DNA from: Helicobacteraceae bacterium
Lineage (GTDB): Bacteria > Campylobacterota > Campylobacteria > Campylobacterales > Sulfurimonadaceae
Reading direction: 5' to 3'
DNA length: 62,134 nt
Assembly: GCA_026988515.1 (NCBI GenBank)
Contig: JALSLA010000019.1
Span: 1 to 62,134, forward strand
The notes below the pieces were generated by a model that saw nothing but the letters and a program-made list of their open reading frames with translations, made no database searches and was not told where the DNA came from. The translations under genes were made by a program, and so were the position numbers. The first letter of the stretch is position 1; each line of letters starts with the position of its first letter. Positions 5,819 to 32,138 of this stretch are shown here, in pieces.

Positions 5819-5819
<1 letters not shown>

Positions 5820-10102: not shown

Positions 10103-10138
10103 AATGACACTCCTTCAAAAGACCAGAATTTTAGAGCA

Positions 10139-10160: not shown

Positions 10161-10177
10161 AAAAAATGAACAGTTGT

Positions 10178-11728
10178 TCATAGATGCTTTTGTTGCCGTT
10201 TATTGTGGGGCAAAAGGGTGGTAGAAGGTGCGCTTACGGGCGTATGATAATGGTGTCGTATTGTTTTGGGAATACGCCTTCCTTTAACACACAGAATGTC
10301 TTTGACCATAACCGTTGCAACATATTCGGGGTCAAATTTACATGTAGATGTGAGATACTCAAAGAGCAGCGTGCTTAAACGTTCCAGAGAAATTTTCCAG
10401 GTTGATTGCGTTTGGGAGTAGATCCATTCACTTAACGCATAGAAGCCGTCAAAAACGGTGGTGTCGGTGTGAATCAGAGGGAAGGTGTTTTTAAAGTTTT
10501 GGCTATTGTAGATAAGATCCCAAAAGCGTGCAAAACGTTTCATCTTTTGAATCTCTTTAAAAGAGAGTCGGTCATTTTGTAAAATATCGTAAGGCGGTGT
10601 GTCGGAATAGATCATGCCGTACTGTGCATCATGACGTCCCATTACCGTACCGCTGAGTTTTTTTAATATACCAATTTGGATTTCAGAGTCTGTGAGTGCG
10701 CAGAGCACATTGAGATTGTTTCCAAATCCTGCCAAGCTTTCACCCGGAAGTCCTACAATAAGATCCAGATGCATATGTGCTTTGGTCTTATGGTGTAAAA
10801 AACCGATGTTCTGTTTAATCTTTTCAAGCCTTAACGGACGACCAATCGTGTTTGCAATAGCGGGATCGAGCGTCTGTATGCCAATTTCAAGCTGTAACGA
10901 ACCCGCAGGAAAACGTGAAATTTTCTCTTTGATAGTGTCGGGAAAATGGTCAGGAATAACTTCAAAATGAACAAAATAGGGCGGTTCTTTGCTCAGGAAA
11001 AAATCAAGAAACCGGTTCGCAATATGCACATTCAGATTGAACGTTCGGTCAATGAATTTAAAGTTTCTCACGCCGCGATTCCAAAGCGTTTCAAACGCTT
11101 CTAGTAACTTGTTTGTATCAAAATTACGTACTTTTTCATCTATAGAAGAGAGGCAAAACTCACATGAAAAGGGACAACCTCTTGATGCCTCAACATAGAT
11201 ATAACGGTTCGTGATGTCGTTTTGGTTATAAAACGCATAGGGGAGTGTGAGACGTGAAAGTTCAACCTGTGAGGGCTTAACAATTCTCGATGGGATAACC
11301 CCATCGGCTAACAATGTTTTACATGTTGCATAAAACGCTACGTCGCCTTCACCTTGAATAATGACATCGGCACGGTCAAAATTGACGCGAAAAGGCTCGT
11401 AACTCACCTCGGGACCGCCCAAAATAACAGTGACGTGAGGCGCAACTTTTTTTAAAATCTCCAGAAGGGCATGAACCTGCGTCGCATTCCAGATATAGAC
11501 GCCGATACCGATGATTTTCGGTTGCCGATCCAAGAGTGCTTCGGCAATAGTTTGAAGGGATTCGTTAATGGTAAACTCTAAAATACATGTAGAAGATTGG
11601 AGCTCATTCATATTGGCATACAGGTAGCGTAGCGCTAAAGAGCTGTGGGTGTAGCGTGAATTTAATGTTGTCAGAATAATCGTTTTCATCAAACGATTAT
11701 TGACATTTTGGGCAAATTCCTGACACAA
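10178..11728 (-). CDS. B12-binding-domain radical SAM protein (probable start 11689, MKTIILTTLNS)
   Basis: N-terminal cobalamin-binding-like domain; radical SAM CPFSCEFCLS motif. Confidence 0.9.
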   Translation of the reverse strand: MCQEFAQNVNNRLMKTIILTTLNSRYTHSSLALRYLYANMNELQSSTCILEFTINESLQTIAEALLDRQPKIIGIGVYIWNATQVHALLEILKKVAPHVTVILGGPEVSYEPFRVNFDRADVIIQGEGDVAFYATCKTLLADGVIPSRIVKPSQVELSRLTLPYAFYNQNDITNRYIYVEASRGCPFSCEFCLSSIDEKVRNFDTNKLLEAFETLWNRGVRNFKFIDRTFNLNVHIANRFLDFFLSKEPPYFVHFEVIPDHFPDTIKEKISRFPAGSLQLEIGIQTLDPAIANTIGRPLRLEKIKQNIGFLHHKTKAHMHLDLIVGLPGESLAGFGNNLNVLCALTDSEIQIGILKKLSGTVMGRHDAQYGMIYSDTPPYDILQNDRLSFKEIQKMKRFARFWDLIYNSQNFKNTFPLIHTDTTVFDGFYALSEWIYSQTQSTWKISLERLSTLLFEYLTSTCKFDPEYVATVMVKDILCVKGRRIPKTIRHHYHTPVSAPSTTLLPHNKRQQKHL

Positions 11729-12095
11729 TTAATGAGGTGTCATCAATCGTATAGCCATTATCGTCGGCAATTGTATGCGCGACTCGGGCAATATCAAAAT
11801 GGATATCTTTAAATTCGCCACACACATGACAGACAAGATGCGCATGCGGTGTTTTTGAAATTTCATAGCGCGCCTTGATATCAGGTGCTTTGACCTCTTT
11901 AATGAGCGAGGTCTCAAGCATGGCGTTAATGTTTTTATACAGTGTTGCCAAGGAGATGGAGGAGAACTGTTTTTTGATGGATGCAAACAGCTCTTCAATA
12001 CTAATATGTCCGGCTTCGTGCATCAACTGCAAGATGCCCAGACGCTGCGGTGTTATTTTTAAGTTATTCTCTTTAAGTAGTAATTCGTAATTCAT
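11697..12095 (-). CDS. Fur/PerR-family transcriptional regulator
   Basis: Fur-type winged helix plus zinc motifs CHVCGEF and CPKC. Confidence 0.9.
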   Translation of the reverse strand: MNYELLLKENNLKITPQRLGILQLMHEAGHISIEELFASIKKQFSSISLATLYKNINAMLETSLIKEVKAPDIKARYEISKTPHAHLVCHVCGEFKDIHFDIARVAHTIADDNGYTIDDTSLIVSGICPKCQ

Positions 12096-12198
12096 GTTGG
12101 AATTATAACACTTTTATAAGAGAAGTTAATTATATGAAAATATTAGTTAAAAGATAATAATTTTCTTTTAAGTTTTAAAGACTATAATTTCATATCAT

Positions 12199-12217
12199 TT
12201 AAGTTAGTTGGACTTAA
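12199..12217. promoter_or_regulatory. Inverted repeat in the regulator/peroxidase divergent region
   Basis: TTAAGT-N7-ACTTAA about 35 bp before the cytochrome c peroxidase start. Confidence 0.35.
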
Positions 12218-12251
12218 GTATTAAAAACAAAATTCAATTAAGGGGAAAAAT

Positions 12252-13265
12252 ATGAAAGTTATTGCATTAAGTGCATTGGCAACAGTAACATTGATGGCAT
12301 CGCCATTGGTAGAGAGTGCGAAACAAGCAGGTTTGGTTGCAATTCCGGATTCGGAATCGGCACTGTTAAAGATGATTGACAATCCAAATAATCCGATTAC
12401 GGCAAAAAAAGTGGAGTTGGGTAAAAAACTCTATTTCGATCCGCGACTCTCAAAAAGCGGTATTATCAGCTGTAATACCTGTCACAATTTAGCTGAGGGC
12501 GGTGATGACGGTGTTCCTGCGGCAATCGGTCACAACTGGGCAATGAATCCGCACCACCTCAACTCACCGACGGTATATAACTCGGTATTTTTTGAATCGC
12601 AGTTTTGGGACGGACGTGATCCGGATTTAGAAAAACAGGCACAAGGACCGATTCAGGCACATCCGGAGATGGCGGCGACTAAAGAGCATGTTGAAAAAAC
12701 CGTGAACTCAATGCCGGAGTATGTGATGGAGTTCAAAAAAGCATACGGCAAAGATGTTACGGTAGATTTCAAAACCATTACCGAAACCATTGCGACTTTT
12801 GAGCGAACATTGACAACACCGTCACGATTTGATGACTTTTTAAACGGCTGTCCGAGTGCATTGAACAAAGCGGAACAAGAGGGGTTGAAGACTTTTATTG
12901 ACAAAGGATGTGCAACCTGTCACACCGGAGTTGCGCTTGGCGGTTCCATGCAGGCATTTGAGATTACGGCAAAATACAAACATGCCGGTTTGGGTGACTT
13001 TAAAGGAAACAAAGACGGTCTGGTTAAAGTACCGACATTGCGTAACATTACGCAAACGGCACCGTACTATCACAACGGCGGTATCTGGAGCTTGAAAGAG
13101 GCGATTGATGAGATGGGGCGAACACAGTTGGGTATTAAGTTAAGCGACAAAGAGATTGCCTCTATTGAGACGTTTCTTAAAACACTTGACGGCAGAAAAG
13201 CTGAATTGGTATATCCGCAACTTCCGGCTTCTACAGAAACAACTCCTAAGCCAAACGCCAATTAA
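12252..13265 (+). CDS. Diheme cytochrome c peroxidase
   Basis: Signal peptide; CNTCH and CATCH; LGKKLYFDPRLSKSG and VPTLRNITQTAPYYHNG motifs. Confidence 0.95.
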   Translation: MKVIALSALATVTLMASPLVESAKQAGLVAIPDSESALLKMIDNPNNPITAKKVELGKKLYFDPRLSKSGIISCNTCHNLAEGGDDGVPAAIGHNWAMNPHHLNSPTVYNSVFFESQFWDGRDPDLEKQAQGPIQAHPEMAATKEHVEKTVNSMPEYVMEFKKAYGKDVTVDFKTITETIATFERTLTTPSRFDDFLNGCPSALNKAEQEGLKTFIDKGCATCHTGVALGGSMQAFEITAKYKHAGLGDFKGNKDGLVKVPTLRNITQTAPYYHNGGIWSLKEAIDEMGRTQLGIKLSDKEIASIETFLKTLDGRKAELVYPQLPASTETTPKPNAN

Positions 13266-13272
13266 CTGCTGG

Positions 13273-13286
13273 GCTCTTTCGAGAGC
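13273..13286. terminator. Short hairpin between convergent genes
   Basis: GCTCT(TTCG)AGAGC. Confidence 0.4.
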
Positions 13287-13736
13287 TTATCGGCAGCGCT
13301 TGGCCAAAAAAGCGTTAAGCTGATTGGCAAAAGCATGAGCATCTTTCGGTGAAAAGGGCTTTGGTCCTTTTGTTATGTCACCACATTCACGAATGGACTC
13401 CATGAGATTACGCATTGCCAAATAGTGCTTGATATTATCGGCACTGAAACGTTGACCGCGATGATCGATGGCATGTGCTTTTTTGGTAACGATACTATCA
13501 GCCAGGGGAATGTCAGCGGTGATGACGAGATCCCCTTCTTGAACCGATTCGGCAATAGCGGCATCAGCAACATCGGCACCTTGTGCAACTATAGTATAGG
13601 TTATATATTTAGATGTTCCCAGAGATATTTTTTTATTTGAGACGACAAAGGTTTCAATACGAAGTCGTTCAATGGCGCGCAACAGAATGGGTTTGAGCAG
13701 ATTGGGAAAGGCATCGCCATCAATAAAGAGTCGCAC
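13287..13736 (-). CDS. YaiI/YqxD (DUF188) family protein
   Basis: IDGDAFPN...VITADIPLADSIVTKKAHAIDHRGQRFSADNI signature. Confidence 0.9.
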   Translation of the reverse strand: MRLFIDGDAFPNLLKPILLRAIERLRIETFVVSNKKISLGTSKYITYTIVAQGADVADAAIAESVQEGDLVITADIPLADSIVTKKAHAIDHRGQRFSADNIKHYLAMRNLMESIRECGDITKGPKPFSPKDAHAFANQLNAFLAKRCR

Positions 13737-13745
13737 GAATGCGCT

Positions 13746-14327
13746 CTATTTTGTAATGGTTACGACGATTGCACCGCGAAGGTCACTCATTTTGTATCCG
13801 GTTGCTTTATCGTTGGGATAGCTTGACTTTATAAAGTTGGCGAGTTTGGTATTGTTAGTGATATCACCGTGACATTTGAGACAGACACCTTTGTTAATAC
13901 GTAGCGGTTTGTAATATTTTGCCGTGGCACTGTCGACACGTTCTACTACATATTGTGGCAATATAACATGATTGTTTTGTAACTGTTGCAGTGCTTCTAA
14001 AATGGCTTTTTCCGAACCTTGTGCCGCATTGGCGGGATTGCGCTCATTCAGACTGATGCGCTTGACACTAATGTCCTTGCCGTATTTGGTGCTGACGTTA
14101 TCGGTAAGGGGAAAGGCTTTAGCAGAGCAAAATTTTGCTGCACCCAAGGGTCCTTCACTTTGAAGATGTTGTTTGAGATTTTTTCCAAGGGTTTGGATGA
14201 GGCTCGTTGCGACCTCATTACCCGTTTTGACGATGCTGTCATACTCCTCTTGCGGGGTCGTATAGGGGTTGGCAAGCAGTGATGTACCCAGTAGTGCGAG
14301 GGCGCTTAGGTAAGGTAATGTTTTCAT
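13746..14327 (-). CDS. Periplasmic heme protein, DUF3365 (Tll0287-like)
   Basis: Signal peptide, single CLKCH, Tll0287-like pattern (AIVVTI C-terminus). Confidence 0.75.
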   Translation of the reverse strand: MKTLPYLSALALLGTSLLANPYTTPQEEYDSIVKTGNEVATSLIQTLGKNLKQHLQSEGPLGAAKFCSAKAFPLTDNVSTKYGKDISVKRISLNERNPANAAQGSEKAILEALQQLQNNHVILPQYVVERVDSATAKYYKPLRINKGVCLKCHGDITNNTKLANFIKSSYPNDKATGYKMSDLRGAIVVTITK

Positions 14328-14398
14328 GCGATTTCCTTTATGAATTTCAGATAACTAATAATACTACATTATACTTATAATAAATTTGATGTAAATAA

Positions 14399-15700
14399 TT
14401 ATCTTTTTATGTAAGTTTGCAACCATGCAATCGCTTCCGATTTACATGTAAATTCTTGTCGTAGTTGCGCATTGTAGGCATCATTCAATAGGGTTTTAAA
14501 GCTTTTGGAAGGCTGAAGCCCCTGTGCAATAAGATCACGACCTTGAAGCAGTGGCTTGGGCGGATGATAAAATACATGTAAGGCCTGTGCCTTCTCGGCC
14601 AGCCATATTCCGGCTTCGAAGCGGTAGTGGTCCGTATGGCGGTGACATTTTCTCGCTATGGCTTCGGCAACGGGGAGCAGGTCGGCAATGCAGACGTTGA
14701 CAGAGAGCTTTAAAATTTCGGCTGAACCCGATTGCGCATCATACATCCGTTGCGGGTAGCGATTGTAACGCACCAGCGTACTAACGGCATCAATGAGTGC
14801 AGGATGCTGTGTCAGTCGGTGAAGAAAGGTTTTGCCCTCATGGGGCATTTTATGACAGAGAATGGCGAGCATGGCAACAAGATCTTTTGTGGCATCACCA
14901 CGTCGCATTGATGCCATGGTATCTAAAGTCAGCAGTGTATGATCAAAAAGATTCTTTTGTGAACGGCAGGTTTGCGATGCCATCGCATCAAGCTCGTCAA
15001 AATAGCGTAAGGCACCGAATGCTTTGAGCAGACGTATTCCTTCGGAGGGTTTGTCGGCATTGAGCAGCAATTTACGAAACTCTTCAAAAATACGCTCTTT
15101 TGGTAACGTTTGCAGTTCACCGGAGGCCACTATGGTACGGCAGAGTCGGTGGAGTGAGTCGCTAATGTGCAGATTAAAACGTGCCGCAAACTGCATGGCA
15201 CGATAGAGTCGCAGGGGGTCTTCAACAAACGTGTTTGCATCCACTTCACGCAAGAGCCCGTTTTTCAGGTCATCTTGCCCGCCGTAAGGGTCCAGCAGTG
15301 TGTCAGTTACGGTATTATAGCCTATGGCGTTGATGGTAAAGTCTCGTCGACGTGCCGCGGCGCTAAAGTCGAGTTGCTGTGCCGTATTGACACGAAAGCC
15401 TTTGTGGCCGGGGGCTATTTTAGATTCGGTACGCGGCAGGGAAATATCTAAAGAGAGTTCGTCTATGCGCATTTTCAACACACCAAAACTGCGCCCGACT
15501 TCATGAACGGTTCCAAACGTATTGAGAACGGTTTTGAGTGTTTCTATGTTGTTAGTCCCGTAGACTTCAATATCGATATCTTTGGAATATACATGCAGTA
15601 GGGTATCGCGTACGTATCCGCCGACGATAACCGGAGTCATCTTCTTGGCTATCAGTGCGTCGAGCAGCGGCATGAGCGTTAGCGGTAGGGCAATGAGCAT
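14399..15700 (-). CDS. cca: CCA tRNA nucleotidyltransferase / poly(A) polymerase family
   Basis: VGGYVRDTLLHVYSKDIDIEVYG and RRRDFTINAIGYN motifs. Confidence 0.9.
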   Translation of the reverse strand: MLIALPLTLMPLLDALIAKKMTPVIVGGYVRDTLLHVYSKDIDIEVYGTNNIETLKTVLNTFGTVHEVGRSFGVLKMRIDELSLDISLPRTESKIAPGHKGFRVNTAQQLDFSAAARRRDFTINAIGYNTVTDTLLDPYGGQDDLKNGLLREVDANTFVEDPLRLYRAMQFAARFNLHISDSLHRLCRTIVASGELQTLPKERIFEEFRKLLLNADKPSEGIRLLKAFGALRYFDELDAMASQTCRSQKNLFDHTLLTLDTMASMRRGDATKDLVAMLAILCHKMPHEGKTFLHRLTQHPALIDAVSTLVRYNRYPQRMYDAQSGSAEILKLSVNVCIADLLPVAEAIARKCHRHTDHYRFEAGIWLAEKAQALHVFYHPPKPLLQGRDLIAQGLQPSKSFKTLLNDAYNAQLRQEFTCKSEAIAWLQTYIKR

Positions 15701-17095
15701 TTAAGATGCTTTGAATTTTTTAATGCTGAAGCTAAATGTTGAGCCTTCATGCAGACGGCTTTTAACGACAAGCGAGCTGTTATGAAGCTTTAAAATGTAG
15801 CTGACAATGGCCAGACCGATACCCATGGAGTTATCCCAGCTGTTTTTATGGACGCGGTAAAATTTTGAGCTAATCTTTTCGATCTCTTCAGCTTCAATGC
15901 CAATGCCGAAATCTTCGACCACAACGTCATTATCAGTTAAACTCAGACGAACATCCTCTTCGGAGTATTTAAGCGCATTGTCAATAAGATTGACGACAAC
16001 AAGCTCTATCATGGTTTTGTCGGCAAACACCCTGCGAGAGGTTCCCGTATAGATAACGGTACGGTTTTTATAACTTTTGGACATGTTGCTTGCAATCTCT
16101 TCAAGCAGCTCGCTAAGATCAAAATGGGTCGGTTTGATGCTTAAATCGTTATGCTCCAACTTGACCGACAGGCTCAACCGATCAAGCATACTGCTGATTT
16201 TGTGACTGTTAGAGAGGATTTTTTGTAAAAATTTTGTGCGTATTTGCGCATTGATTTCCGGATCGTCATGCAGGGTTTCGGCATAGCCCATAATGGAAGC
16301 AATCGGATTTTTGAATTCATGCGAGATAGCCGAGAGTATGTCGTTACGCTGTTTGTTAACCAAACGCAGTTTTGCCGTATATTTGCGTTTTTGTTTCTCG
16401 CGAGATGCCAATTTTTTAACAAGATTTTTTAGCAGTAAAGAGATCTGTAAAAATTCGTTAAAGTAGCGGGTTTTTACCACGGCTTTGTAATTTTTGTTGG
16501 AGATGGCATCAAGATATTGGGTGATTTGCATGATATCGTAACGGATGCGCTTGCTCATTTTTAACGAGACAACAATGGCAATAAGGGTCATGAGGGCAAA
16601 GATAATGAGCAGGTTGCGCCAGAGTGCATAAAAATTATGCATGATGCGCTCCAGACTGATGGACAGACGCAGGTAGATCGGATGCTGCTGCCAGATGATA
16701 CGTTTGGAAACATATAGAAAATCGGTTTTTAGAGTTTTCGAGTAACGGGTACTCATACCGAATGTTTGGGAGTTTGATGCTATCACTTCAGCGCGGTGAG
16801 CATGGTTTTCCATATGTTGTTTGTCCGTATTACTCTCGGCTATAACATTGCCGTTTGTATCAATAACGGTAATACGTAAGCCCGTGGCACGGTGCGCCTT
16901 TTTGACATACGTATCGAGACTCTCAACGGTATTGAGTTCCAATGCAATAAGGGCAATAGAGCTTTTGAGATGATCTTCATAATACTCAATAACTATATCT
17001 TTAAGGGTAATATAACTTGCCAACGAGGCTAAAAAGAGCGTGCCTAAGAAGAGACCGAGAAACTTAATAATAAAGACATGGTGAATGTTTAGCAC
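15701..17095 (-). CDS. phoR: Sensor histidine kinase, PhoR-like
   Basis: Two TM segments, SHEFKNPIASI H-box, VVNLIDNALKYS, DFGIGI; in locus with phoB/phoU. Confidence 0.8.
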   Translation of the reverse strand: MLNIHHVFIIKFLGLFLGTLFLASLASYITLKDIVIEYYEDHLKSSIALIALELNTVESLDTYVKKAHRATGLRITVIDTNGNVIAESNTDKQHMENHAHRAEVIASNSQTFGMSTRYSKTLKTDFLYVSKRIIWQQHPIYLRLSISLERIMHNFYALWRNLLIIFALMTLIAIVVSLKMSKRIRYDIMQITQYLDAISNKNYKAVVKTRYFNEFLQISLLLKNLVKKLASREKQKRKYTAKLRLVNKQRNDILSAISHEFKNPIASIMGYAETLHDDPEINAQIRTKFLQKILSNSHKISSMLDRLSLSVKLEHNDLSIKPTHFDLSELLEEIASNMSKSYKNRTVIYTGTSRRVFADKTMIELVVVNLIDNALKYSEEDVRLSLTDNDVVVEDFGIGIEAEEIEKISSKFYRVHKNSWDNSMGIGLAIVSYILKLHNSSLVVKSRLHEGSTFSFSIKKFKAS

Positions 17096-17811
17096 AAGGT
17101 GTATCCGACACCTCGAACCGTTTTAATGTACTCTTTCTCTTTGTCGGGGTCAATTTTTTCTTTGAGGCGGTTAATGGCAACGTTGACCGTGCGATCTTGA
17201 TAGATGCCATCATTGCCCCAGACATGCTCAAGAAGATAATCACGATCGAGTACGACGTTATGATTGTTCATGAGGGTATGAAGCAGGTCAAATTCGAGTT
17301 TGGTCAACTCTACTTCCTGTTCTGCAACATGTAAAGTATGGGCATTAAGATTGAGCTTCATGTCGCGATGTTCCAAAATACCGTGGGACGCTTCGTGGCG
17401 TGTACGGCGTAAAACGGCTTTGATACGTAGAATCAGCTCTTTCATATTGAACGGTTTGGTAACATAGTCGTCACCGCCACGTTTGAATCCCTCTTCAATA
17501 TCGTTGTCACGATTTTTGGCGCTCAGGTAGATTACAGGGAGGTCAAAGCCTTTTGCACGAATCGAGGCAACAAACTCGCTCCCCTCTACTCCGGGAAGAT
17601 TGCGATCCATAATAAGCAGATCAACCGACTCCTCTTCGAGTGCCTGTTCGACATTTTTGGTATGCATAAAACCGAGGGTTTCAAAGCCTTCTTTAGCGAG
17701 GTTATACTCGATGAGCTCTAAAAGATCCTCTTCATCTTCGACAATAAGTATGAGTGTTTGCATCACATTCCTCTGTTTAGTAGACGTTGATGCTCCCGCC
17801 CTCTTTGGCAT
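17089..17811 (-). CDS. phoB: OmpR-family response regulator, PhoB-like (probable start 17763, MQTLILIVEDEE)
   Basis: Receiver domain plus winged helix (RTVNVAINRLKEKIDP...IKTVRGVGYTL); adjacent to phoU and phoR. Confidence 0.85.
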   Translation of the reverse strand: MPKRAGASTSTKQRNVMQTLILIVEDEEDLLELIEYNLAKEGFETLGFMHTKNVEQALEEESVDLLIMDRNLPGVEGSEFVASIRAKGFDLPVIYLSAKNRDNDIEEGFKRGGDDYVTKPFNMKELILRIKAVLRRTRHEASHGILEHRDMKLNLNAHTLHVAEQEVELTKLEFDLLHTLMNNHNVVLDRDYLLEHVWGNDGIYQDRTVNVAINRLKEKIDPDKEKEYIKTVRGVGYTLC

Positions 17812-18451
17812 AGAGCATTAAATTGGCGATATTGACCGAACGATCGCATGAACGTTCGAGTTTTCGTAAGGTTCCCAGCACTTTGACATATTCAATAGAG
17901 AGCTCTTTTTCACCAATAATGAGATTCATAATCTCTTTCTCCAAAATAGCGAAAAGGTCATCGTTTTTACTCTCTTCGACCATTACTTTACGGTAATACT
18001 CGTCAATATTGCATATTGTAAACTCTTTAAAGCATTGCAAAAGATATTGTAACGCATTTATAGTACTTTTGTGTAGCTGTACAATAGTATTGTTTAGCGG
18101 TGTAAGGTGGCATTCACTTTCACAATGTTCCTTCATGCGGCGTGCATACTTTTTCACCCCGTCACCGATACGGACAATTTCATTGGTCATTTTAAGGTAG
18201 GAGACAAGCATACGAAGCTCGTTGGCTTCAGGACCAAAAAGGGCAAAGGTTTTAATAATTTCGTTGTCAATCGCGTTAGCATCACTTTGAATGGTTTTGA
18301 GTTGGGACTTTACGAGATCATATTCATCACTTTTATCGTGAATAAAGGCATCGAGTGTAAGCTGGTTGGAGACAATAATTTTTTCTAAAAGGGCGGTGAT
18401 CATCTCTTGGATTTCGGTAATTTTATTTTCGTAACGTTTTAACACGTTCAT
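17777..18451 (-). CDS. phoU: PhoU-family phosphate regulator
   Basis: Helical PhoU-like protein, divergent from pstS, upstream of phoB/phoR. Confidence 0.85.
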   Translation of the reverse strand: MNVLKRYENKITEIQEMITALLEKIIVSNQLTLDAFIHDKSDEYDLVKSQLKTIQSDANAIDNEIIKTFALFGPEANELRMLVSYLKMTNEIVRIGDGVKKYARRMKEHCESECHLTPLNNTIVQLHKSTINALQYLLQCFKEFTICNIDEYYRKVMVEESKNDDLFAILEKEIMNLIIGEKELSIEYVKVLGTLRKLERSCDRSVNIANLMLYAKEGGSINVY

Positions 18452-18498
18452 CTCCTTGCTAACATAAATAAATAATATCTGAAAGAGTATAGGATTAT

Positions 18499-18551
18499 GG
18501 TAACAGAAAGGTTACAAGCTGTATTGCCGATTGTAATCAAACGGTTATCTT
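18499..18551 (+). promoter_or_regulatory. Candidate tandem Pho boxes between phoU and pstS
   Basis: GGTAACAGAAAGGTTACAAG (18499-18518) and TTGTAATCAAACGGTTATCTT (18531-18551), half-sites spaced about 11 bp. Confidence 0.45.
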
Positions 18552-19602
18552 GCTTCTTTACAATGTCACCATCTTAAACGAAATGAGGAGAGATATTATG
18601 ATAAAACGTATTGTTTCAGCGGCATTGATTGCAGCCGTTACGGTTACGGCATCGATTGCCGCCGATAAGATTAGCGGAGCGGGAGCATCGTTTCCGGCAC
18701 CACTCTATTATGATTGGGCATATAACTATCAAAAAGATACGAAAAGCCGAGTGAATTATCAGTCGATCGGTTCAGGCGGCGGTATTAAACAGATAAGCAA
18801 CCGTATTGTTGATTTTGGAGCATCGGATAAACCGTTGAAAACAAAAGAGTTAATGAAGAAGAAGTTACTGCAGTTTCCTACGGTTATCGGATCCATTGTA
18901 GTTGCCCATAATATCCCGGGTATTGCCGATGAAAAACTCAAGTTGAAAAACAGCGTGGTTGCCGATATTTTTTCGGGTAAAATCACCAAATGGAATGATC
19001 CGGCTATTCAGGCAGATAATGCAAAACTGACACTGCCCGATGAAAAAATCATTGTAGTGCGTCGCTCTGACGGTTCAGGGACAACCTATAACTTTACATA
19101 CTATTTAAGCAAAAGCTCCGATAACTGGAGAAATCATTTCGGTACGGGTAAAGCGATTGACTGGGCCGTTGGAATCGGCGGCAAAGGGAACGAGGGAGTA
19201 GCCAATTTACTCAAGCAGACACCGTATGCCATCGGTTATATTGAGACAGCTTATAAAGAAAAGAGCAAACTCGCGGCTGCAACGCTTCAGAGTGCAAGCG
19301 GAAAATGGGTCAGTGCCCGTGAAGAGAATTTTAAAGCAGCAGCAAAATATGCGTCTTGGACGAAAGAAGATAATTTCTATGCCATGCTGGCACTGCAGCC
19401 GGGTGATACATCGTATCCGATTGTAGCGGCAACGTTTATTTTGCTTCCGAAAGAGCATGTTGCAATGAATAAAAAAGTTATTGCTTTCTTTGACTATGCT
19501 TTTAAAAACGGTGACGCATCCGCGAAAAAGTTAGGATATATTCCCCTTCCTGAGGAGACAAAAGCAATGATTCGCGAGTATTGGAGTATGCACATTAAAT
19601 AG
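18550..19602 (+). CDS. pstS: Phosphate-binding protein PstS (probable start 18598, MIKRIVSAAL)
   Basis: GAGASFPAPLYYDWA, GSGGGIKQI, VRRSDGSGTTYNFT. Confidence 0.97.
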   Translation: MLLYNVTILNEMRRDIMIKRIVSAALIAAVTVTASIAADKISGAGASFPAPLYYDWAYNYQKDTKSRVNYQSIGSGGGIKQISNRIVDFGASDKPLKTKELMKKKLLQFPTVIGSIVVAHNIPGIADEKLKLKNSVVADIFSGKITKWNDPAIQADNAKLTLPDEKIIVVRRSDGSGTTYNFTYYLSKSSDNWRNHFGTGKAIDWAVGIGGKGNEGVANLLKQTPYAIGYIETAYKEKSKLAAATLQSASGKWVSAREENFKAAAKYASWTKEDNFYAMLALQPGDTSYPIVAATFILLPKEHVAMNKKVIAFFDYAFKNGDASAKKLGYIPLPEETKAMIREYWSMHIK

Positions 19603-23247: not shown

Positions 23248-23446
23248 GCTGCAATATAAAAGCTTAATTTTTTTCTTCAATAAAATCCTTTTTGCTACTG
23301 CTAAGAAACATATTTTTACTCATAAAACAGTGTCCGAAAAATTCTCAAACCGATGGATGAATGTATAATTTTTAATAATTTAACAATAAAGTTAAAACAT
23401 TATGCTAGAATCAACAATAATACTTAAATCTTATAAAGGATTTGGA

Positions 23447-23794
23447 ATGAAGATGTTGATTTTAGGTTTATCATTAATGATAACACTCTATTCAAACAGC
23501 GCCATGGCTGACAGCGCCAATGGAAAAATTATTTTTGAGGCAAAAGGGTGTGTCATGTGCCACCAAAAAGATATGGATACGGTCGGTCCTTCGTTGCGCA
23601 CCATTGCTATTGGCTACTCGGGCAAAGAGAGTACGCTGGTCGCGTATCTTAAGGGGCAGGGTGCACCGATTATTGATCCTTCGCGCGCATCGGTAATGGC
23701 ACCGCAGTTGGTTAAAATACGCATGCTCTTTGAAGATGAGTTTCGCGATTTGGCAGAGTATATTGTGGCATCGGCAGATCGTCCGGTCTACTAG
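23447..23794 (+). CDS. Monoheme class I cytochrome c
   Basis: Signal peptide; GCVMCHQKDMDTVGPSLRTIA; ORF track extends to 23402 but MKMLILGL is the likelier start. Confidence 0.85.
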   Translation: MKMLILGLSLMITLYSNSAMADSANGKIIFEAKGCVMCHQKDMDTVGPSLRTIAIGYSGKESTLVAYLKGQGAPIIDPSRASVMAPQLVKIRMLFEDEFRDLAEYIVASADRPVY

Positions 23795-23846: not shown

Positions 23847-25052
23847 ATGAAACGTCGTTTTTTTTATATATTTAGTACATTGTTGGTGTTGCATACGGGA
23901 TTGTTTGCAGCTGAAACAGAAAAAGCAGCATCGAAAGAGAGCGCTCTGACTGAAGATGAAAAATTTTACGGAACGGAATTGCGTTCGAGTAAAAAAGTGG
24001 TGCATCCTCCGTATGAATGGGGTGACTGTACGGTTTGCCATACCGATGCCAAAGGCGAGGGCGGGTTGGTGCAAGATCCGCCGGAGTTGTGTTATATGTG
24101 CCATGAGCCCAAAGACAGCAAAAAGTTTATTCACGGTCCGGTTGCCGCAGGCGCCTGTACTGCGTGTCACAACCCTCATGAGTCAGAAAACTCAAAATTG
24201 CTGGTAGCATCGAGTATTAATGAGCTTTGTACATCGTGTCACCAAGCCAAAGGGGAGTTTTTGCATACAACGACACACATTCATCCTCCGGTACAAGACA
24301 AGTGTACCAACTGTCATGATCCGCATACCGAAGATCACCTTTACCAGCTTAAAGCCGACCGTTTTATGGATCTTTGTGTGATGTGTCATGTTGACAAAGA
24401 GGTGTGGACACGTGAAGTCAGCGTGAAACACGGTGCATTGAATCGTCCGCGTAAATGTTTGGAGTGTCATGATCCACACGGTTCGGAAAATCCGAAATTT
24501 CTTATTAAAGAGACCTCTAAAGAGCTCTGTCTAACCTGTCACAATCAACGGCTTGTTACCGATGAAGACGGCTACAAACTGACTAATATGGCAAAGCATC
24601 TCGAAGAGAATCCCGATTGGCACGGTCCGATTTTATGGGGTGATTGTGCAGCGTGCCATAATCCGCACGGCTCTAACAATTTGCGTATGCTCAAAAAACC
24701 GTTCCCGAAAAAATTCTATGATAAGTTTGATAAAGATCACTATATCTGTTTTGAGTGTCATGAGCCTGAAAAAATTCAAGATGAGTTTACCACGACGGCA
24801 ACGAACTTTAGAAACGGCGATAAAAACATGCACTTTGTACATGTAAATGGGAAGAAAGGGCGTACGTGTCGTGCTTGTCACGATTTTCACGGAACCAAAG
24901 AGTACCCGCATCACTTGCGTAAAAAGACGAGTTTCGGTAAAATCAACTTTCCAATCCGTTATATTGAAACAGATACCGGCGGATCATGTGCACCGGCATG
25001 TCATGCGCGGCGTTATTATGATAGAGAAACACCAAAGGTGAATTTAAAATAA
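23847..25052 (+). CDS. Multiheme cytochrome c, doubled-CXXCH type (11 CXXCH + CX3CH)
   Basis: Signal peptide; CTVCH, CYMCH, CTACH, CTSCH, CTNCH, CVMCH, CLECH, CLTCH, CAACH, CFECH, CRACH plus CAPACH. Confidence 0.95.
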   Translation: MKRRFFYIFSTLLVLHTGLFAAETEKAASKESALTEDEKFYGTELRSSKKVVHPPYEWGDCTVCHTDAKGEGGLVQDPPELCYMCHEPKDSKKFIHGPVAAGACTACHNPHESENSKLLVASSINELCTSCHQAKGEFLHTTTHIHPPVQDKCTNCHDPHTEDHLYQLKADRFMDLCVMCHVDKEVWTREVSVKHGALNRPRKCLECHDPHGSENPKFLIKETSKELCLTCHNQRLVTDEDGYKLTNMAKHLEENPDWHGPILWGDCAACHNPHGSNNLRMLKKPFPKKFYDKFDKDHYICFECHEPEKIQDEFTTTATNFRNGDKNMHFVHVNGKKGRTCRACHDFHGTKEYPHHLRKKTSFGKINFPIRYIETDTGGSCAPACHARRYYDRETPKVNLK

Positions 25053-25053: not shown

Positions 25054-26091
25054 TTGAAAACGATGCGTTTATTATCTCTAATGCTTTTGTCAGTTGCCGT
25101 GCTTTTCGGTAAAGCAGAAGACGTAAATCATTCCGCAACGTCTTTTGATATTGTTGAGCCGATCAATAAGGCTCTTTATACCGGAGAGCGGGCGACATTC
25201 GTGATAAAAGTGTTGTCAAAAGAGATTGACAGGCTTGTCATTGTGCAAGATGAAGGAACCACTGAAGAAATCAAGGTGCTTCCCACAAAACGTACGTATT
25301 GTAAAACGATTAATTTACATGTAGGTGACAATAGTATTCAGGTGCAGTCATATCATGGTACAACCTTGATTGAAAGCAGAGCAACGGAACTCTATTTTCT
25401 TTCGGAACTCTTTGAGGGTCTTGATGATGAACCCGAAGGGTTTAAGCGTTACTATTTTCATACTGACAACGAAGAGAACGGCTGCAAGGCCTGTCATAAT
25501 ATGACATCGAATGTTCCGACTGACGGGGAACCGTTTGAAGATGTCACCAAAACCACCTGTTATGAGTGTCATCACGGCATGCTTAACACCAAAAATACAC
25601 ATGCGCCGGCAGCAAATTGGCTCTGTCTGGATTGCCATGACGGTAAAATCGGTGAATACAATATGCAAGATGAAGGCAAATCAAAATATCTGGTACGCGA
25701 TCCGGTGGAACGTAACTGTGACGATTGTCACGATGTGTTGCAGGAGTGGCATAGTAAAAAATATTCACATGGACCTGTTAATGATGGGCACTGCATTCGT
25801 TGCCATAATCCTCACGGTTCTGAAAATGAATTTTTCCTTCGCAAAAGTATTTGGGATCTGTGTACGACATGTCATGCCGAAAAGGCAACCGGAAAGCACA
25901 TCGTCTCAAGTTTTGTATTTGCGCGTAATAAGGGAGTTCATCCTACCAAAGGTCCCAAGGATCCTGCCCGTCCTGAGCAAAGTTTTGCGTGCAGCAGTTG
26001 CCATAACCCCCACGGCTCTGACGGTATTTTTCTACTAAGAATGAAGGGCACCATGCCGTTTAATGTCTGCAATCGTTGCCATAAAAAATAA
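25054..26091 (+). CDS. Octaheme cytochrome c with N-terminal beta-sandwich-like domain (TTG start)
   Basis: Signal peptide; CKACH, CYECH, CLDCH, CDDCH, CIRCH, CTTCH, CSSCH, CNRCH. Confidence 0.93.
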   Translation: MKTMRLLSLMLLSVAVLFGKAEDVNHSATSFDIVEPINKALYTGERATFVIKVLSKEIDRLVIVQDEGTTEEIKVLPTKRTYCKTINLHVGDNSIQVQSYHGTTLIESRATELYFLSELFEGLDDEPEGFKRYYFHTDNEENGCKACHNMTSNVPTDGEPFEDVTKTTCYECHHGMLNTKNTHAPAANWLCLDCHDGKIGEYNMQDEGKSKYLVRDPVERNCDDCHDVLQEWHSKKYSHGPVNDGHCIRCHNPHGSENEFFLRKSIWDLCTTCHAEKATGKHIVSSFVFARNKGVHPTKGPKDPARPEQSFACSSCHNPHGSDGIFLLRMKGTMPFNVCNRCHKK

Positions 26092-26347
26092 TTTTAATTA
26101 ACTAATTTTATTTTTTAAAGTTCTTATTATAGGGACTGATCCTTGGAAGTTTTTTTTTGGAATAACCTTGAGCAGGCAAATAGAGCGTAGTAAGTAAAAA
26201 TATTCTATATCCACGCTATTATGTTACTATTTGTAACGGATTTGGAAAATTGTTCTTCTCTCAATTGCTTTTTCATTAACTATTGGTTATCATAGTACTA
26301 GTAAACATTATATAAGTATTTTTTATATGGTGTGATAAGGAGTTATT

Positions 26348-27106
26348 ATGAATAAAAAGATAAATATAATTACAGGTTTATTAGTTCTTTGTTCTCCACT
26401 GGTATATGGTGGATCCATTGTAGGAAGTCCGCACGATATTGGCGGAGGTGGAAATAATGTTGCCGGCGACAACGGTGAGATTTGTGTATACTGTCACACG
26501 CCTCACGCGGCGAATGTCGCCTTTGACGGTGCTCCGTTGTGGAATAAGTCCGGAACGGCAAGTAACGACTATATGATGTACGGTGCAACGGCCATCAATA
26601 CTGCAGGTACAACAATTGCCGGTAATGCAACGGAGGCAACGCCATCGAGTCCTTCATTGGCATGTTTAAGCTGTCATGACGGTATCAGTGCCATCGACTC
26701 TATTGTCAATGCTCCGGGTTCTGGTCCGGGGAATTTAGCAGCCGGTACGAAAAACATTGGTCAATTGACGACAATGTTTGGTGGCAATATCGGTGGGGCT
26801 GCCGGTGCACCAACCTCTGGTACTACGGTAGACCTTGCCAATGATCACCCGGTATCTATTTTATATGTTGAGAATGCAGCCGGCTTAAGACCAAAAACAA
26901 CGGTACTTAGCAGTACCAATTCCGGCGGTACGTCATGGGTTGGTGCAACAACTATTAATGATCTGCTTCGTGCCGGTAGAGTAGAGTGTGGCAGTTGTCA
27001 TGATCCACACAATGGCGGTAACACCCAGGGAGTCAGTACTGAAGCCAACTTCTTGCGTCACAGTAATACCGGCAGTCAACTTTGTATCGGTTGTCATGAC
27101 AAATAG
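26348..27106 (+). CDS. Tetraheme cytochrome c, OmcE-like
   Basis: Signal peptide; CVYCHTPHAA...APLWNK, CLSCHDG, CGSCHDPH, CIGCH; N-terminal SPHDI motif. Confidence 0.9.
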   Translation: MNKKINIITGLLVLCSPLVYGGSIVGSPHDIGGGGNNVAGDNGEICVYCHTPHAANVAFDGAPLWNKSGTASNDYMMYGATAINTAGTTIAGNATEATPSSPSLACLSCHDGISAIDSIVNAPGSGPGNLAAGTKNIGQLTTMFGGNIGGAAGAPTSGTTVDLANDHPVSILYVENAAGLRPKTTVLSSTNSGGTSWVGATTINDLLRAGRVECGSCHDPHNGGNTQGVSTEANFLRHSNTGSQLCIGCHDK

Positions 27107-27129: not shown

Positions 27130-27152
27130 GGAAGGGAGATTTTCTCCCTTCC
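27130..27152 (+). terminator. Strong hairpin between tetraheme cytochrome and NHL protein genes
   Basis: GGAAGGGAGA-TTT-TCTCCCTTCC, 10-bp perfect stem. Confidence 0.65.
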
Positions 27153-27268: not shown

Positions 27269-28357
27269 ATGAAAAAAACTTTTCTTTTTATATCTGTTTT
27301 CAGCATACTGTTTTTCACGGCATGTGCACCCAAGGTTGTTGAAGTCAAGCCAAATATTGTGTTCCCGCCGTATCCAGACGAACCTAAAATTGTCTATTTG
27401 GAAACCTACCGAGGCGGTGTGAGCGCTGAAGAAGCGAAAAGCCTAAGCGGTGTTCTTGATGTGTTCTTAGGCGAGGACAATGGTGATTCGGGTGTGTCGA
27501 ATATTATTAAGCCTTATGGGGTTGGGCTTCTTGACGGCAAGGTGTATGCTGTAGACACCGGTTCCGATGCGGTCTTTATTATGGATGAGAAAAGCAGAGA
27601 AGTAACTTTTTTGGGAAATAAAGCACGAGGAAGGCTCATTGGACCTGTAGCTGTAGCTTTTGACAGTAACGGTACGGTGTATGTGAGTGATGCCAAGCAA
27701 AAAGTCATTCAAGGGTACGATAAGGAAGGTAGGCTTAAATATGTATTGGGAGGCAGATTGGTATTTACCTATCCTACCGGTATTGCCATCAATAAAAAGT
27801 TAAACCGCCTCTATGTTGTCGATACCAAATTGCACCATTTTAAAGCGTTTGACCTCAACACAAAAGAGCATCTCTTTACGGTTGGAAAGCGTGGAAAAGG
27901 CGATGCCGAATTTAATTTTCCCACTAATGTCGCCGTCGATCAGAGAAACGGTAATGTCGTTGTTGTGGATACACAAAATTTTCGGGTACAGATATTTGAC
28001 AAAGACGGTAACTTTATTCGTCGTTTTGGTAAAATTGGAGATAAACCAGGAATGTTTGCACGACCCAAAGGGGTCGGAATCGATACGGAGGGGCATATTT
28101 ATGTCAGTGATGCCGCATTTAACAATGTTCAAATTTTTAACGATCAGGGACAGCTTCTACTCTATTTCGGAAGTGCCGGCTATACTCCTGCAACATTTCG
28201 TTTAATTGCCGGTCTCTATATTGACGAGAACGATAAAATTGTTATTGCAGACGGATTTTCCGGACAGGTGCAAACTTTTCAGTATTTAAGTCAACAATGG
28301 AAAGAGAAGCATCCCGATGAATATAAGAAATTAAAAGAGTTTCAACCGGAAATGTAG
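27269..28357 (+). CDS. NHL-repeat lipoprotein
   Basis: Lipobox FFTAC; repeated NHL-type motifs (VVVDTQNFRVQIFDKDGNFIRRFG, YVSDAAFNNVQIFNDQGQLLLYFG). Confidence 0.88.
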   Translation: MKKTFLFISVFSILFFTACAPKVVEVKPNIVFPPYPDEPKIVYLETYRGGVSAEEAKSLSGVLDVFLGEDNGDSGVSNIIKPYGVGLLDGKVYAVDTGSDAVFIMDEKSREVTFLGNKARGRLIGPVAVAFDSNGTVYVSDAKQKVIQGYDKEGRLKYVLGGRLVFTYPTGIAINKKLNRLYVVDTKLHHFKAFDLNTKEHLFTVGKRGKGDAEFNFPTNVAVDQRNGNVVVVDTQNFRVQIFDKDGNFIRRFGKIGDKPGMFARPKGVGIDTEGHIYVSDAAFNNVQIFNDQGQLLLYFGSAGYTPATFRLIAGLYIDENDKIVIADGFSGQVQTFQYLSQQWKEKHPDEYKKLKEFQPEM

Positions 28358-28376: not shown

Positions 28377-29309
28377 GTGAAAATAGTTTTTTTTGTTATG
28401 GGTCTGTACGGTTTATTAATGGCTCAAGCCCCATCGCTGCCGGAAGCGACCGCAGCAATTGTTAACGGCATTGCAATTACTGACGATGAGCTCAACAAAG
28501 AGATAGGAAAAGAGCTGCCGCGAACCTATTACCACGCAACGTTAAATGATGAAAAGCTCTCAAAGCTTAAGAAAAAAGCGTTACAGTCGTTGATAGAAAA
28601 AACGCTGTTGTATCAATACGCGCGGTCACAAAACATTAAAGTTACAGATGATGAGATCGATGATGTGATGGGTACGCTTGCTGAAGCGTACGGCTCAAAA
28701 AATACACTGGAGAAAGCATTTCGACAGCTGGGGTTTACGCCGAAGTCATTCCGAAAAGCCATTGAGAAAGATGAAGTGCTAAAAAAACTTTACACCAAAG
28801 AGATTGAAGTTCATATTGATGAGAGCGAACTGAAGAGATATTACGATACAAACAGGTACAAGTTTAAGGAGCCTGAAAAAATACGAGTTCGGTTAATTCA
28901 TGTTCGCAATGATCCGAAAGATCCAAAAGGAAAGCAGAAGGCCAAAGCAGCTATTGATGCCGCCTATAAAGAGCTCAAAGAGGGTGCTGATTTTGCCGAT
29001 GTTGCAGCAAAATATTCAACAGCAATGAGCCGTATTAAAGGCGGTGACATGGGCTACCTTCATAAGGGACGGCTCGATGCGGCGGTGGAAGAGAAAGCTT
29101 TTGCTATGGATGTTAACACTACCAGTGATATTATTGAAGATACAATCGGGTATTTCATTGTTAAAGTAGAGGACAAACTAGAACCCAATCAGCTCTCTTT
29201 TGAACAGGTCAAAAAGAGCCTGAAAAAAGATCTTAAAAAACGCCGTGAAAAAGAGCGTAAAGCAGCATTGCTCAAGAAACTCATGGCAACCGCGGTGATT
29301 GTAAAGTAG
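28377..29309 (+). CDS. SurA/PpiC-like parvulin peptidyl-prolyl isomerase (GTG start)
   Basis: SurA-N-like region, then IRVRLIHVR...GADFADVAAKYSTAMSRIKGGDMGYLHKGRL. Confidence 0.92.
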   Translation: MKIVFFVMGLYGLLMAQAPSLPEATAAIVNGIAITDDELNKEIGKELPRTYYHATLNDEKLSKLKKKALQSLIEKTLLYQYARSQNIKVTDDEIDDVMGTLAEAYGSKNTLEKAFRQLGFTPKSFRKAIEKDEVLKKLYTKEIEVHIDESELKRYYDTNRYKFKEPEKIRVRLIHVRNDPKDPKGKQKAKAAIDAAYKELKEGADFADVAAKYSTAMSRIKGGDMGYLHKGRLDAAVEEKAFAMDVNTTSDIIEDTIGYFIVKVEDKLEPNQLSFEQVKKSLKKDLKKRREKERKAALLKKLMATAVIVK

Positions 29310-29312: not shown

Positions 29313-31139
29313 ATGAGTATGAAAAAAATGGTACGTATTGTCTTATTGGTGTGTGTAGCAACTACCGGATTATTGCAGGCATATAACTATAGAGACAAAG
29401 GTGCATACGGTCGGATTGAGTTTCGATATATTGACGATTACTACAAAACTGACAGTTCCGTGACGTCGCAGCAGGATTTTATTCAAGAGTACCAACTTGG
29501 ATATATGGGAAATATTTACAGTCCCCGTCTCTTAGATTATACGCTGGAGGGTTTGCTGCGCTTTGAAAATATTGATGACAAGACGCAAGGTGTTAAGTCA
29601 ACGACAAAAATTGACAGCCAGGATTATAAAGTCAACCTTGCCTTTATTAAACAGAGCAGCTACCCGTTTACGCTGTATGCGCAACGCACCAACCGACCCT
29701 ACTCGACAATATACAGTCAGTCTATTAGCCGTTATACGCAAGATTTGGAAAAATTCGGTATTACCGGAAGTATGAAGTTTGATCTGTTTACCGTAAATTA
29801 CGGCGCCTCTAAAAACAAGAGAGTGCAAGAGGATATTGCGACGCTTCAAGATGTAGATACGACAACATACCGTATTTCTGCACGTCGTGCGAAAGAGAAC
29901 TATCATGTGCAAGTCAGCTATCAGCACCTTAAAAGAATTACGGACCAGACCTATGCGAACAGCAGAACCAGCCAGATTAATCAAACAGACGACAGTGCCG
30001 ATATTAGATATGGCTGGAATATTTCCGATGCCTTAACGCTAAATTCGGGACTTCGTTATTTAAAAAGCGACTACTATCGTACCGAAACAACAACAGCCGA
30101 TGCCAGTTTGCGATGGCTCCCCGATACTAAAAAGTATAACGGGATGCTGTCAATATCGGCGAGTCGATCCGATCAGTTGGCTAATGCGTATGACATTGGG
30201 GATGCCCAAATATATTCAAATCAGGTAGATATGCTCAATATAAACCAAAATTTTAACTATAATGTGACGCCGCAACTGATGCTTACTGAAAATATGTCCG
30301 TGTACCGATTTAGTTCAGATGCCAGTACCGGAACGATTTACAGTTTACGGTTTGGAGCAAACTACAGCAAAAAGCTTGGAAAAGAGACGAGAATGCAGCT
30401 CTCCTCAAGTATTGATATGCGCTCGAGCCAAAATGAGACGAGCGGCACGGAATACAGCAGCTATCAGTCCTTGGACAAAGAGAGCTACAGAGTCAATCTT
30501 GGTGCTAGAGTGAATCGAAATCTGCCAAGTATACGCTCGACACTCAATACGGGAATAACCTATTACGGTATGCGGACATCACTGGATGAAACACGAGATC
30601 GTTACAGTATAAACGGCTCACTGTATACGAAACTTTTTGGTGCATTTGGCAATCGCATTGATGTGAGCTATATGGATGACGAGAGTCTTACCTATTTGAG
30701 CAGTACGGACGGTTTGTATGCCCGCGCCATTACACGATTGGAAGCCGGTGAATATATTGACTATACGACACGTTTAGGCATACGGGGAAGGCTGTCGCTT
30801 AAAGCAGGCGTTCGGTATTCCAAAATAGACAATGACGGATTGGTGGTATCTCGAACTGTGCCGCGTGTCGATATGAATATGAACTACCGCTTTTGGCAGC
30901 GACTGATTTTCACGGCCGGTGCTCATGTTGACAAGGATTTGACCTACAACTACATTAACTATGCGGCTAATGCCAATATTAGTTATAAAATCCGAAAAGT
31001 TGCTTTTTCGATGGGGTATCAGTATTACAGAACGAAAGTAACGGACGTTGTTGATGCGATTGAAGGCATTGAGTCGCTCGTGATTATACCTGAACGGGAT
31101 CGATCCCGATTTGAGATGAAATTAAGTCGGAGATTTTAG
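29313..31139 (+). CDS. Outer-membrane beta-barrel protein (MtrB/PCC-porin-like by context)
   Basis: Signal peptide, pervasive amphipathic beta alternation over ~580 aa, C-terminal RF; no Cys in mature part. Confidence 0.8.
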   Translation: MSMKKMVRIVLLVCVATTGLLQAYNYRDKGAYGRIEFRYIDDYYKTDSSVTSQQDFIQEYQLGYMGNIYSPRLLDYTLEGLLRFENIDDKTQGVKSTTKIDSQDYKVNLAFIKQSSYPFTLYAQRTNRPYSTIYSQSISRYTQDLEKFGITGSMKFDLFTVNYGASKNKRVQEDIATLQDVDTTTYRISARRAKENYHVQVSYQHLKRITDQTYANSRTSQINQTDDSADIRYGWNISDALTLNSGLRYLKSDYYRTETTTADASLRWLPDTKKYNGMLSISASRSDQLANAYDIGDAQIYSNQVDMLNINQNFNYNVTPQLMLTENMSVYRFSSDASTGTIYSLRFGANYSKKLGKETRMQLSSSIDMRSSQNETSGTEYSSYQSLDKESYRVNLGARVNRNLPSIRSTLNTGITYYGMRTSLDETRDRYSINGSLYTKLFGAFGNRIDVSYMDDESLTYLSSTDGLYARAITRLEAGEYIDYTTRLGIRGRLSLKAGVRYSKIDNDGLVVSRTVPRVDMNMNYRFWQRLIFTAGAHVDKDLTYNYINYAANANISYKIRKVAFSMGYQYYRTKVTDVVDAIEGIESLVIIPERDRSRFEMKLSRRF

Positions 31140-32138
31140 ATGAATAAGCTATGGTATTTTGCGCTACTGTTTGTGACAATAGAGAGTTTTGCAGCCACAA
31201 AAGCGTCAAAACTTGTTTGGCCCTCACCCCCGGATCCGGCGCGCATAGAGTATGTTGCTTCCGTAAACAATGCAAAAGAACTTGGTATTGAGAAAGGATT
31301 CTTCTCTAAAATATTTGATTTTATGTTTGGTGAAGAAGATCCGGTTCTAAACAGCCCGTTTGGCATTCATGCAGACAAAAGCCGCGTGTACGTCACCGAC
31401 ATTTTTGCCAAGACACTTTATATTTTTGATAAAGACGAGAGCGATATCATCAGTGTCAAAGGTTCGGATAAAGAGCCGTTTTTATATCCTGTTGATGTGG
31501 TCACCGATACCCAAGGTAATATTTATGTTTCTGATTCGGTGCGTGCCAAAATTTATGTTTTTGACAGTGACGGCGATTTCATACGCACTATTGCACCCAA
31601 AGCGCTGCAGCGCCCCGTCGGTATTGCCGTCAGTGCCGATGGTCGATGGCTCTACATTGTTGATGCTATGGCAAGTCAAATACATGTAACCAGTTTAAAA
31701 GGGAGTTATCTCAACTCTATAGGCGCTCACGGTAAAGGCGAAGGGGAATTTAATCGACCGACTTTTATTGATGTCGGTAACGATGGAAATCTTTATGTGA
31801 GTGATTCCATGAATCATCGGGTGCAAATTCTCGATAAAAACGGGAACTACATAAATGCTTTTGGTGAGTTGAGTGACCGTATCGGAGGCTTCGGAAGTCC
31901 CCGCGGTATTGCATTGGACAGCGATGGCAACATCTATGTTAACGATACGCTTTACAATACGGTGCAGATCTTTAATTCTCAAGGAGAACTTCTGATGCTC
32001 TTTGGTTCATACGGAACGCACAAGGGTGAATTTGCATTGCCTATAGATATTTCAATTTCGGTCGATAATACTATATATATTACGGATACTAATAACAAGC
32101 GCTTCCAAATATTCAGACGATTGGAGGCGCCTGAGTAG
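31140..32138 (+). CDS. NHL-repeat periplasmic/extracytoplasmic protein
   Basis: Signal peptide; repeated YVSDSMNHRVQILDKNGNYINAFG-type motifs. Confidence 0.88.
   Translation: MNKLWYFALLFVTIESFAATKASKLVWPSPPDPARIEYVASVNNAKELGIEKGFFSKIFDFMFGEEDPVLNSPFGIHADKSRVYVTDIFAKTLYIFDKDESDIISVKGSDKEPFLYPVDVVTDTQGNIYVSDSVRAKIYVFDSDGDFIRTIAPKALQRPVGIAVSADGRWLYIVDAMASQIHVTSLKGSYLNSIGAHGKGEGEFNRPTFIDVGNDGNLYVSDSMNHRVQILDKNGNYINAFGELSDRIGGFGSPRGIALDSDGNIYVNDTLYNTVQIFNSQGELLMLFGSYGTHKGEFALPIDISISVDNTIYITDTNNKRFQIFRRLEAPE

Follow-up and report, generated by a model that had tools for sequence, protein, structure and literature searches.

The gene at positions 26348-27106 of the DNA analysed here is likely to encode the principal building block of a cytochrome filament of the OmcE type, made from an osc-like operon in a bacterium of the Sulfurimonas family. 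This reading is drawn from sequence homology, a conserved set of haem ligands and gene context, and on the same grounds these sulfur-oxidising bacteria probably build protein nanowires. The gene sits within a dedicated osc-like module. The window, by which we mean the whole stretch analysed, comprises positions 1-62,134 of the forward strand of contig JALSLA010000019.1 (Helicobacteraceae bacterium, GCA_026988515.1); all features given below lie on its plus strand. The host genome belongs to the Campylobacterota (1.99 Mb, 97.8% complete) and its closest named relative is a Sulfurimonas MAG, the tetrahaem of which is 87% identical (locus L014). About 25 kb separate the locus from dnaA-dnaN-gyrB, which probably mark the origin of replication, and its flanks hold phosphate uptake genes, among them pst, a PhoBR-like pair and one for a PhoU-like protein (window positions 810-5819 and 7617-19602).

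The open reading frame begins with ATG, is preceded by a strong ribosome-binding site (AAGGAG, 26337-26342) and encodes a precursor of 252 residues with a Sec-type signal peptide of about residues 1-21 (26348-26410; the cleavage site was judged by eye, and an AlphaFold model places an N-terminal helix at residues 2-20). The first-pass annotation had described a small exported protein with exactly four CXXCH motifs, and this was borne out: sequence and alignment place them at C46-H50 (CVYCH, 26483-26497), C106-H110 (CLSCH, 26663-26677), C214-H218 (CGSCH, 26987-27001) and C246-H250 (CIGCH, 27083-27097). The SPHDI, CVYCHTPHAA and APLWNK blocks that it listed were all found, as were its five histidines outside the haem motifs, namely H29 (SPH, 26432-26434), H53 (CHTPH, 26504-26506), H167 (DHP, 26846-26848), H221 (DPH, 27008-27010) and H238 (LRH, 27059-27061). 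It had also reckoned that one of the five would be left over from bis-histidine ligation; this one is H238, which is unconserved among 69 relatives, where K, R, I, M and other residues take its place.

When the protein was searched against sequences in the PDB, the best solved match was the OmcE filament subunit (7tfs, E=7.9e-20, residues 8-252), followed by cytochrome 9yuq (E=2e-16), and the three proteins align through the four haem motifs, an N-terminal SxxH, CHTPH, PLWN, NDHP and CHxxH. Among the 69 relatives, which come from many phyla, the only conserved histidines outside the motifs are H29 (67/69), H53 (66/69), H167 (69/69) and H221 (69/69), and this conserved distal set is the same four as in OmcE. 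The resemblance to OmcE that had been noticed from the letters is thus genuine homology, since the match is full-length and all four distal histidines are retained; judged by sequence, the tetrahaem is a true homologue of the filament subunit, and chance is ruled out as the source of its motif pattern by a full-length match at E = 8e-20. The further suggestion that it could be a nanowire subunit is supported by this homology, by the distal histidines and by a strong gene context, polymerisation itself being what we infer from them. Four haems need eight axial histidines, and these are supplied by the four in the motifs together with H29, H53, H167 and H221. As there is no spare histidine in the conserved set, any ligand given to a neighbour would have to be returned, as happens in a polymer.

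The histidine most likely to make such a contact can be named by comparison with OmcS, where His16 serves as a ligand to haem V in the adjoining monomer (PMC13319180). We checked the OmcS sequence and found His16 to be the second histidine of CEGCHTMH (positions 9-16), and the first four OmcS haems are reported to superpose on those of OmcE, motifs and distal histidines included (PMC9473688). H53, the second histidine of CVYCHTPH, would then be the equivalent of OmcS His16 and is a clear candidate for the inter-subunit ligand. This putative role is argued from OmcS. The AlphaFold monomer of the tetrahaem, computed with the 69 relatives as input, was poor (mean pLDDT 54) and Foldseek found no structural match for this model in the PDB, so that the fold and the H53 contact are predictions from sequence. 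In published searches, too, OmcE and OmcS found nothing beyond themselves and their close homologues (PMC9473688).

Immediately upstream of the tetrahaem gene, the module contains genes for a monohaem cytochrome c (23402-23794; PF00034, conserved in position) and two periplasmic cytochromes with doubled CXXCH motifs, one with 11 haems (23847-25052), comparable to OscI/OscJ, and one with 8 (25054-26091). Downstream come an NHL beta-propeller lipoprotein (27269-28357; PF01436, conserved in position), a periplasmic prolyl isomerase (PPIase) of the SurA/PpiC type with a putative OscH-like role (28377-29309; PF13616, PF13624), an outer-membrane beta-barrel ending in a C-terminal Phe (29313-31139), a second, exported NHL beta-propeller protein (31140-32138; PF01436), a 678-aa multihaem cytochrome (32151-34187), a 186-aa exported protein that has no Pfam match and is conserved in the module by synteny (34339-34899), and a CcsBA-type cytochrome c synthase (34953-38114; TIGR03144), of which a second copy, 44% identical, is present elsewhere in the genome. 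A DUF4136 lipoprotein gene follows CcsBA. The barrel protein has no Pfam match but gave a high-confidence AlphaFold model (pLDDT 90.8) with 28 strands, for which the best solved structural match was MtrB of the Mtr complex (6r2q_B, E=7e-12, TM 0.46); its sequence search against the PDB returned only noise, with no similarity to MtrB.

The order tetrahaem-NHL-PPIase-barrel-NHL-multihaem cytochrome is repeated in Sulfurimonas-family genomes and in Nitrospirota (L025), recurs with an additional tetrahaem and NHL gene at an Aquificota locus (L029), and is found without a recognised PPIase at an Aquificaceae locus (L026) and a Nitrospinota locus (L028). In Proteobacteria the order is NHL-tetrahaem-PPIase-barrel. 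Among 228 Sulfurimonas-family genomes the tetrahaem is present in 26 and the barrel, always single-copy, in 22; all 22 genomes with a barrel have the tetrahaem, while none of the 202 tetrahaem-free genomes has a barrel (p=6e-27 on the assumption of independent genomes, which ignores their kinship). Across the phylum the trait is patchy, the tetrahaem having been detected in 11 of 397 sampled genomes. Two complete, single-contig genomes (G087 and G098) carry both the module and nifH. A tree of the multihaem cytochrome, built by a quick method and with several open forks, unites Campylobacterota, Aquificota, Nitrospirota and Nitrospinota as a single supported clade, in which Nitrospirota and Nitrospinota rows fall near Sulfurimonas rows; this is in keeping with transfer between phyla.

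The multihaem cytochrome encoded at 32151-34187 is of particular relevance to how a filament might be attached. It has ten CXXCH motifs, one CX12CH and one CX4CH, and its N-terminal third (residues 5-225 of 678) matches OmcE at 1e-27, which is stronger than the tetrahaem's own match. The four distal histidines of OmcE are invariant in this head in all 22 orthologues, and past haem 4 there is an invariant H249 and then a fifth haem motif, CVNCHTPH. Counting over the orthologues gave 13 invariant other histidines versus 11 universal haem motifs plus one frequent one, most orthologues having an irregular C-terminal haem motif; by sequence, the count of 13 is consistent with one donated histidine. 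We infer that the OmcE-like head would attach to one end of the polymer and that the other haems would form a path to the barrel or to a final acceptor. A more specific proposal, which we regard as possible and put forward tentatively, is that this protein is the end piece of a nanowire, its head binding the tetrahaem polymer through the inter-subunit histidine that the subunits themselves use, and the haems of its C-terminal part, in or on the barrel, linking the wire to the periplasm. If this is true, the end piece would supply what cytochrome nanowires have so far lacked, an anchor and a point of electron entry, and would do so in several phyla.

The CX12CH motif (C299, C312, H313; 33045-33089) is present in 22/22 orthologues and invariant in the Campylobacterota/Aquificota/Nitrospirota clade, many members of which have a linked CcsBA; proteobacterial homologues have CXXCH at this position. 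There is precedent for an extended motif requiring its own enzyme in Wolinella, where CX15CH depends on the dedicated haem lyase CcsA1 (PMC6976685). By analogy the linked CcsBA may serve the CX12CH motif, but because motif and CcsBA linkage track the same phyla, we treat the tie as a lead only. A second OmcE-headed multihaem cytochrome, of 687 aa, is encoded on another contig (C41 of genome G000; L010, 8595-13409), where it is next to genes for a PPIase and for a protease of the subtilisin family (PF00082). Given this neighbour, and given that OmcZ maturation in Geobacter needs the serine protease OzpA (PMC12307469), the C41 locus may be a second, protease-dependent system.

A hairpin (GGAAGGGAGATTTTCTCCCTTCC, 27130-27152, -17.8 kcal/mol) lies right after the tetrahaem stop codon and ahead of the NHL gene, and most relatives have a hairpin in this place. 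In the relatives its sequence varies, the median energy is -16.2 kcal/mol, and z<=-3 was scored, against mononucleotide shuffles, in 83% of 30 genes. The same threshold was reached in 0-11% of cases after the NHL1, PPIase, barrel, NHL2, fusion, CcsBA, 186-aa and monohaem genes and in 22% after the 8-haem gene; the control is unclean, since the 11-haem gene reaches it as well, owing to a hairpin at the beginning of the coding sequence that follows. That other hairpin is conserved at most Sulfurimonas-family loci and lies within the part of the 8-haem cytochrome gene that encodes the signal peptide (window positions 25054-25130), where it could possibly exert translational control or reflect only codon conservation. 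We considered the hairpin at 27130-27152 as a terminator and rejected this, since no T-run follows it and it was not listed by the terminator scan. Hairpins of this kind have a precedent in operons from which one structural subunit is made in surplus, and by analogy its position after the tetrahaem gene fits a subunit that is needed in excess.

Some relatives of the tetrahaem lack nearby assembly genes or a part of the ligand set. An orphan paralogue, about 55% identical, is encoded on contig C30 of the same genome (L009, 10109-10864) with no assembly genes nearby. Two trihaem relatives in this genome, on contigs C16 (L013, 8147-8668) and C46 (L012, 8561-9097), are missing the N-terminal part and with it H29, haem 1 and H53; the C16 copy is placed among RND efflux genes. 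Loss of H53 alone is seen in two of the 69 relatives (at L029 and L035); the sequence at this place is CHTQN in two second-copy tetrahaems of Persephonella.

A working model that would accommodate the module as a whole is as follows. The tetrahaem would be exported by Sec, receive its four haems from the CcsBA synthase and be aided in folding by the SurA-type prolyl isomerase, after which it would either pass the outer membrane via the 28-stranded barrel or be retained by it. Outside the cell, H53 of each subunit would ligate a haem of its neighbour to give a wire of stacked bis-histidine haems. Electrons would be conducted across the periplasm by the 11-haem and 8-haem cytochromes, and the OmcE-headed cytochrome would cap one end of the wire through its head, either at the base, as the link to the barrel, or at the tip, as its terminus. 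By way of the wire the cell would then exchange electrons, in one direction or the other, with a solid or with a second cell.

Several other readings have to be weighed against this model. One is that the tetrahaem is a monomeric carrier, periplasmic or loosely bound at the surface, which diffuses and retains the OmcE fold without polymerising. That the fold can serve without the wire contacts is indicated by the C16 and C46 relatives, which persist without H29, haem 1 and H53, and by the L029 and L035 relatives without H53; moreover, no wire is known for most OmcS paralogues (PMC12977616), and the existence of module-less OmcE paralogues, the one on C30 included, means that membership of the family does not equal a wire. 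The tetrahaem studied here, however, retains all four distal histidines and sits in an export and assembly module, and a diffusing carrier has no need of a barrel of its own, of a PPIase encoded beside it or of a partner with an OmcE-like head; we therefore consider a free carrier unlikely. Even less probable, in our estimation very unlikely, is a porin-cytochrome conduit of the Mtr type, in which the barrel would hold the multihaem cytochrome and the tetrahaem would dock outside as a single reductase subunit. Such a conduit would account for MtrB being the barrel's nearest solved fold and for the MtrA/DmsE-like motifs of the neighbouring multihaem cytochromes, but the tetrahaem is like OmcE and not like MtrC or OmcA, the hairpin points to its being produced in larger amounts than the barrel, and NHL proteins and a PPIase belong to osc clusters. 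To our knowledge, neither is a component of MtrCAB.

The remaining question is one of direction and is compatible with the filament reading itself. The wire might serve for electron uptake, with Fe(II), a cathode or a partner cell as the source, instead of respiration with a solid acceptor, as could be expected of a family that lives on reduced sulfur and hydrogen and of a protein with homologues in Nitrospirota, Aquificota and autotrophic Proteobacteria. Against this, cultured Sulfurimonas has been documented to reduce MnO2 (PMC9789136), and the direction of electron flow cannot be told from sequence; we think uptake somewhat unlikely. The MnO2 reducers are Ca. Sulfurimonas marisnigri SoZ1 and Ca. 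S. baltica GD2, and S. gotlandica GD1 is unable to use this acceptor (PMC9789136).

If the tetrahaem does form a filament, the module bears on two matters of wider interest. A 2025 review lists the anchoring of nanowires in the membrane and their points of electron entry and exit as unsolved (PMC12307469). Here the genes for an OmcE-type subunit, for a putative export barrel and for the OmcE-headed multihaem cytochrome are neighbours, and they recur together across phyla, which offers a concrete candidate for the missing anchor part. With regard to physiology, MnO2 respiration by Sulfurimonas is held to be important in the Black Sea (PMC9122950), and the literature we searched described no electron transfer route for it; the module is a candidate mechanism. 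Nor did the literature that we covered, which did not include key work on wire distribution, mention wires of the OmcE type from Campylobacterota, and the novelty of the organismal range is accordingly uncertain.

Compared with OmcE of G. sulfurreducens (GSU0618, PDB 7TFS), the tetrahaem is alike in the places of its four CXXCH motifs, its four distal histidines, the SxxH, CHTPH, PLWN and NDHP blocks, its size and its export signal. It differs in sequence, with 34% identity (4-way alignment), in its larger loops and in heading an assembly module, whereas a transcript of its own is predicted for G. sulfurreducens omcE (PMC1829397, Table 1). OmcE filaments are about 4 nm across, with a rise of about 34 A (PMC13319180). 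The 'putative multiheme cytochrome c' of PDB 9YUQ, the runner-up at E=2e-16, shares the four haem motifs and the distal histidines. With the MtrCAB conduit (PDB 6R2Q) the likeness is in the barrel, the fold of which is nearest MtrB among solved structures; unlike MtrB it has 28 predicted strands, the TM-score is only 0.46 and there is no match in sequence. For the decahaem MtrA plug inside the barrel, a candidate counterpart is the multihaem cytochrome encoded at 32151-34187.

In gene content the module resembles the osc cluster of Geobacter, where a filament cytochrome is likewise accompanied by NHL/beta-propeller proteins, a SurA-type PPIase, a barrel of the outer membrane and large multihaem cytochromes of the periplasm. 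OscH has been assigned to folding of OmcS, OscE/F/G to its secretion and OscD to its morphology (PMC13194489, citing Shen 2025). Six OmcS-bearing, Geobacter-like loci (L143-L148) contain NHL/beta-propeller proteins, a barrel, lipoproteins, a PPIase and 26-haem and 16-haem cytochromes, in agreement with the published cluster, whose 26-haem protein is GSU2495 (PMC12977616). The profile of the module's PPIase matches the osc PPIases at about 1e-17 (range 1e-15 to 1e-25), and that of its barrel gives weak but significant matches (4e-7 and 3e-6) to barrels in two of the six osc loci; NHL proteins occur in the osc loci and the module has two. The 11-haem and 8-haem cytochromes are comparable in type to OscI (26 haems) and OscJ (16 haems), with high profile scores that come largely from haem repeats, for which reason we rejected these scores as evidence that the 11-haem cytochrome is orthologous to OscI/OscJ. 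An OmcE-like tetrahaem gene also lies between the OmcS-like genes of one osc cluster in a Geobacter-like genome (L146, 3331-3987). With the PPIase profile matches, the weaker ones of the barrel and this OmcE-like gene in L146, our locus looks like an osc-type cluster with an OmcE-type subunit, which suggests that OmcE-type and OmcS-type wires may share one kind of assembly machinery. The two nevertheless differ: the subunit is an OmcE-type tetrahaem here and the hexahaem OmcS there; an OscF-type, GNA1162-like lipoprotein, present in an osc locus, was found among none of the module genes, the DUF4136 lipoprotein gene following CcsBA instead; and the module adds the OmcE-headed multihaem cytochrome and CcsBA.
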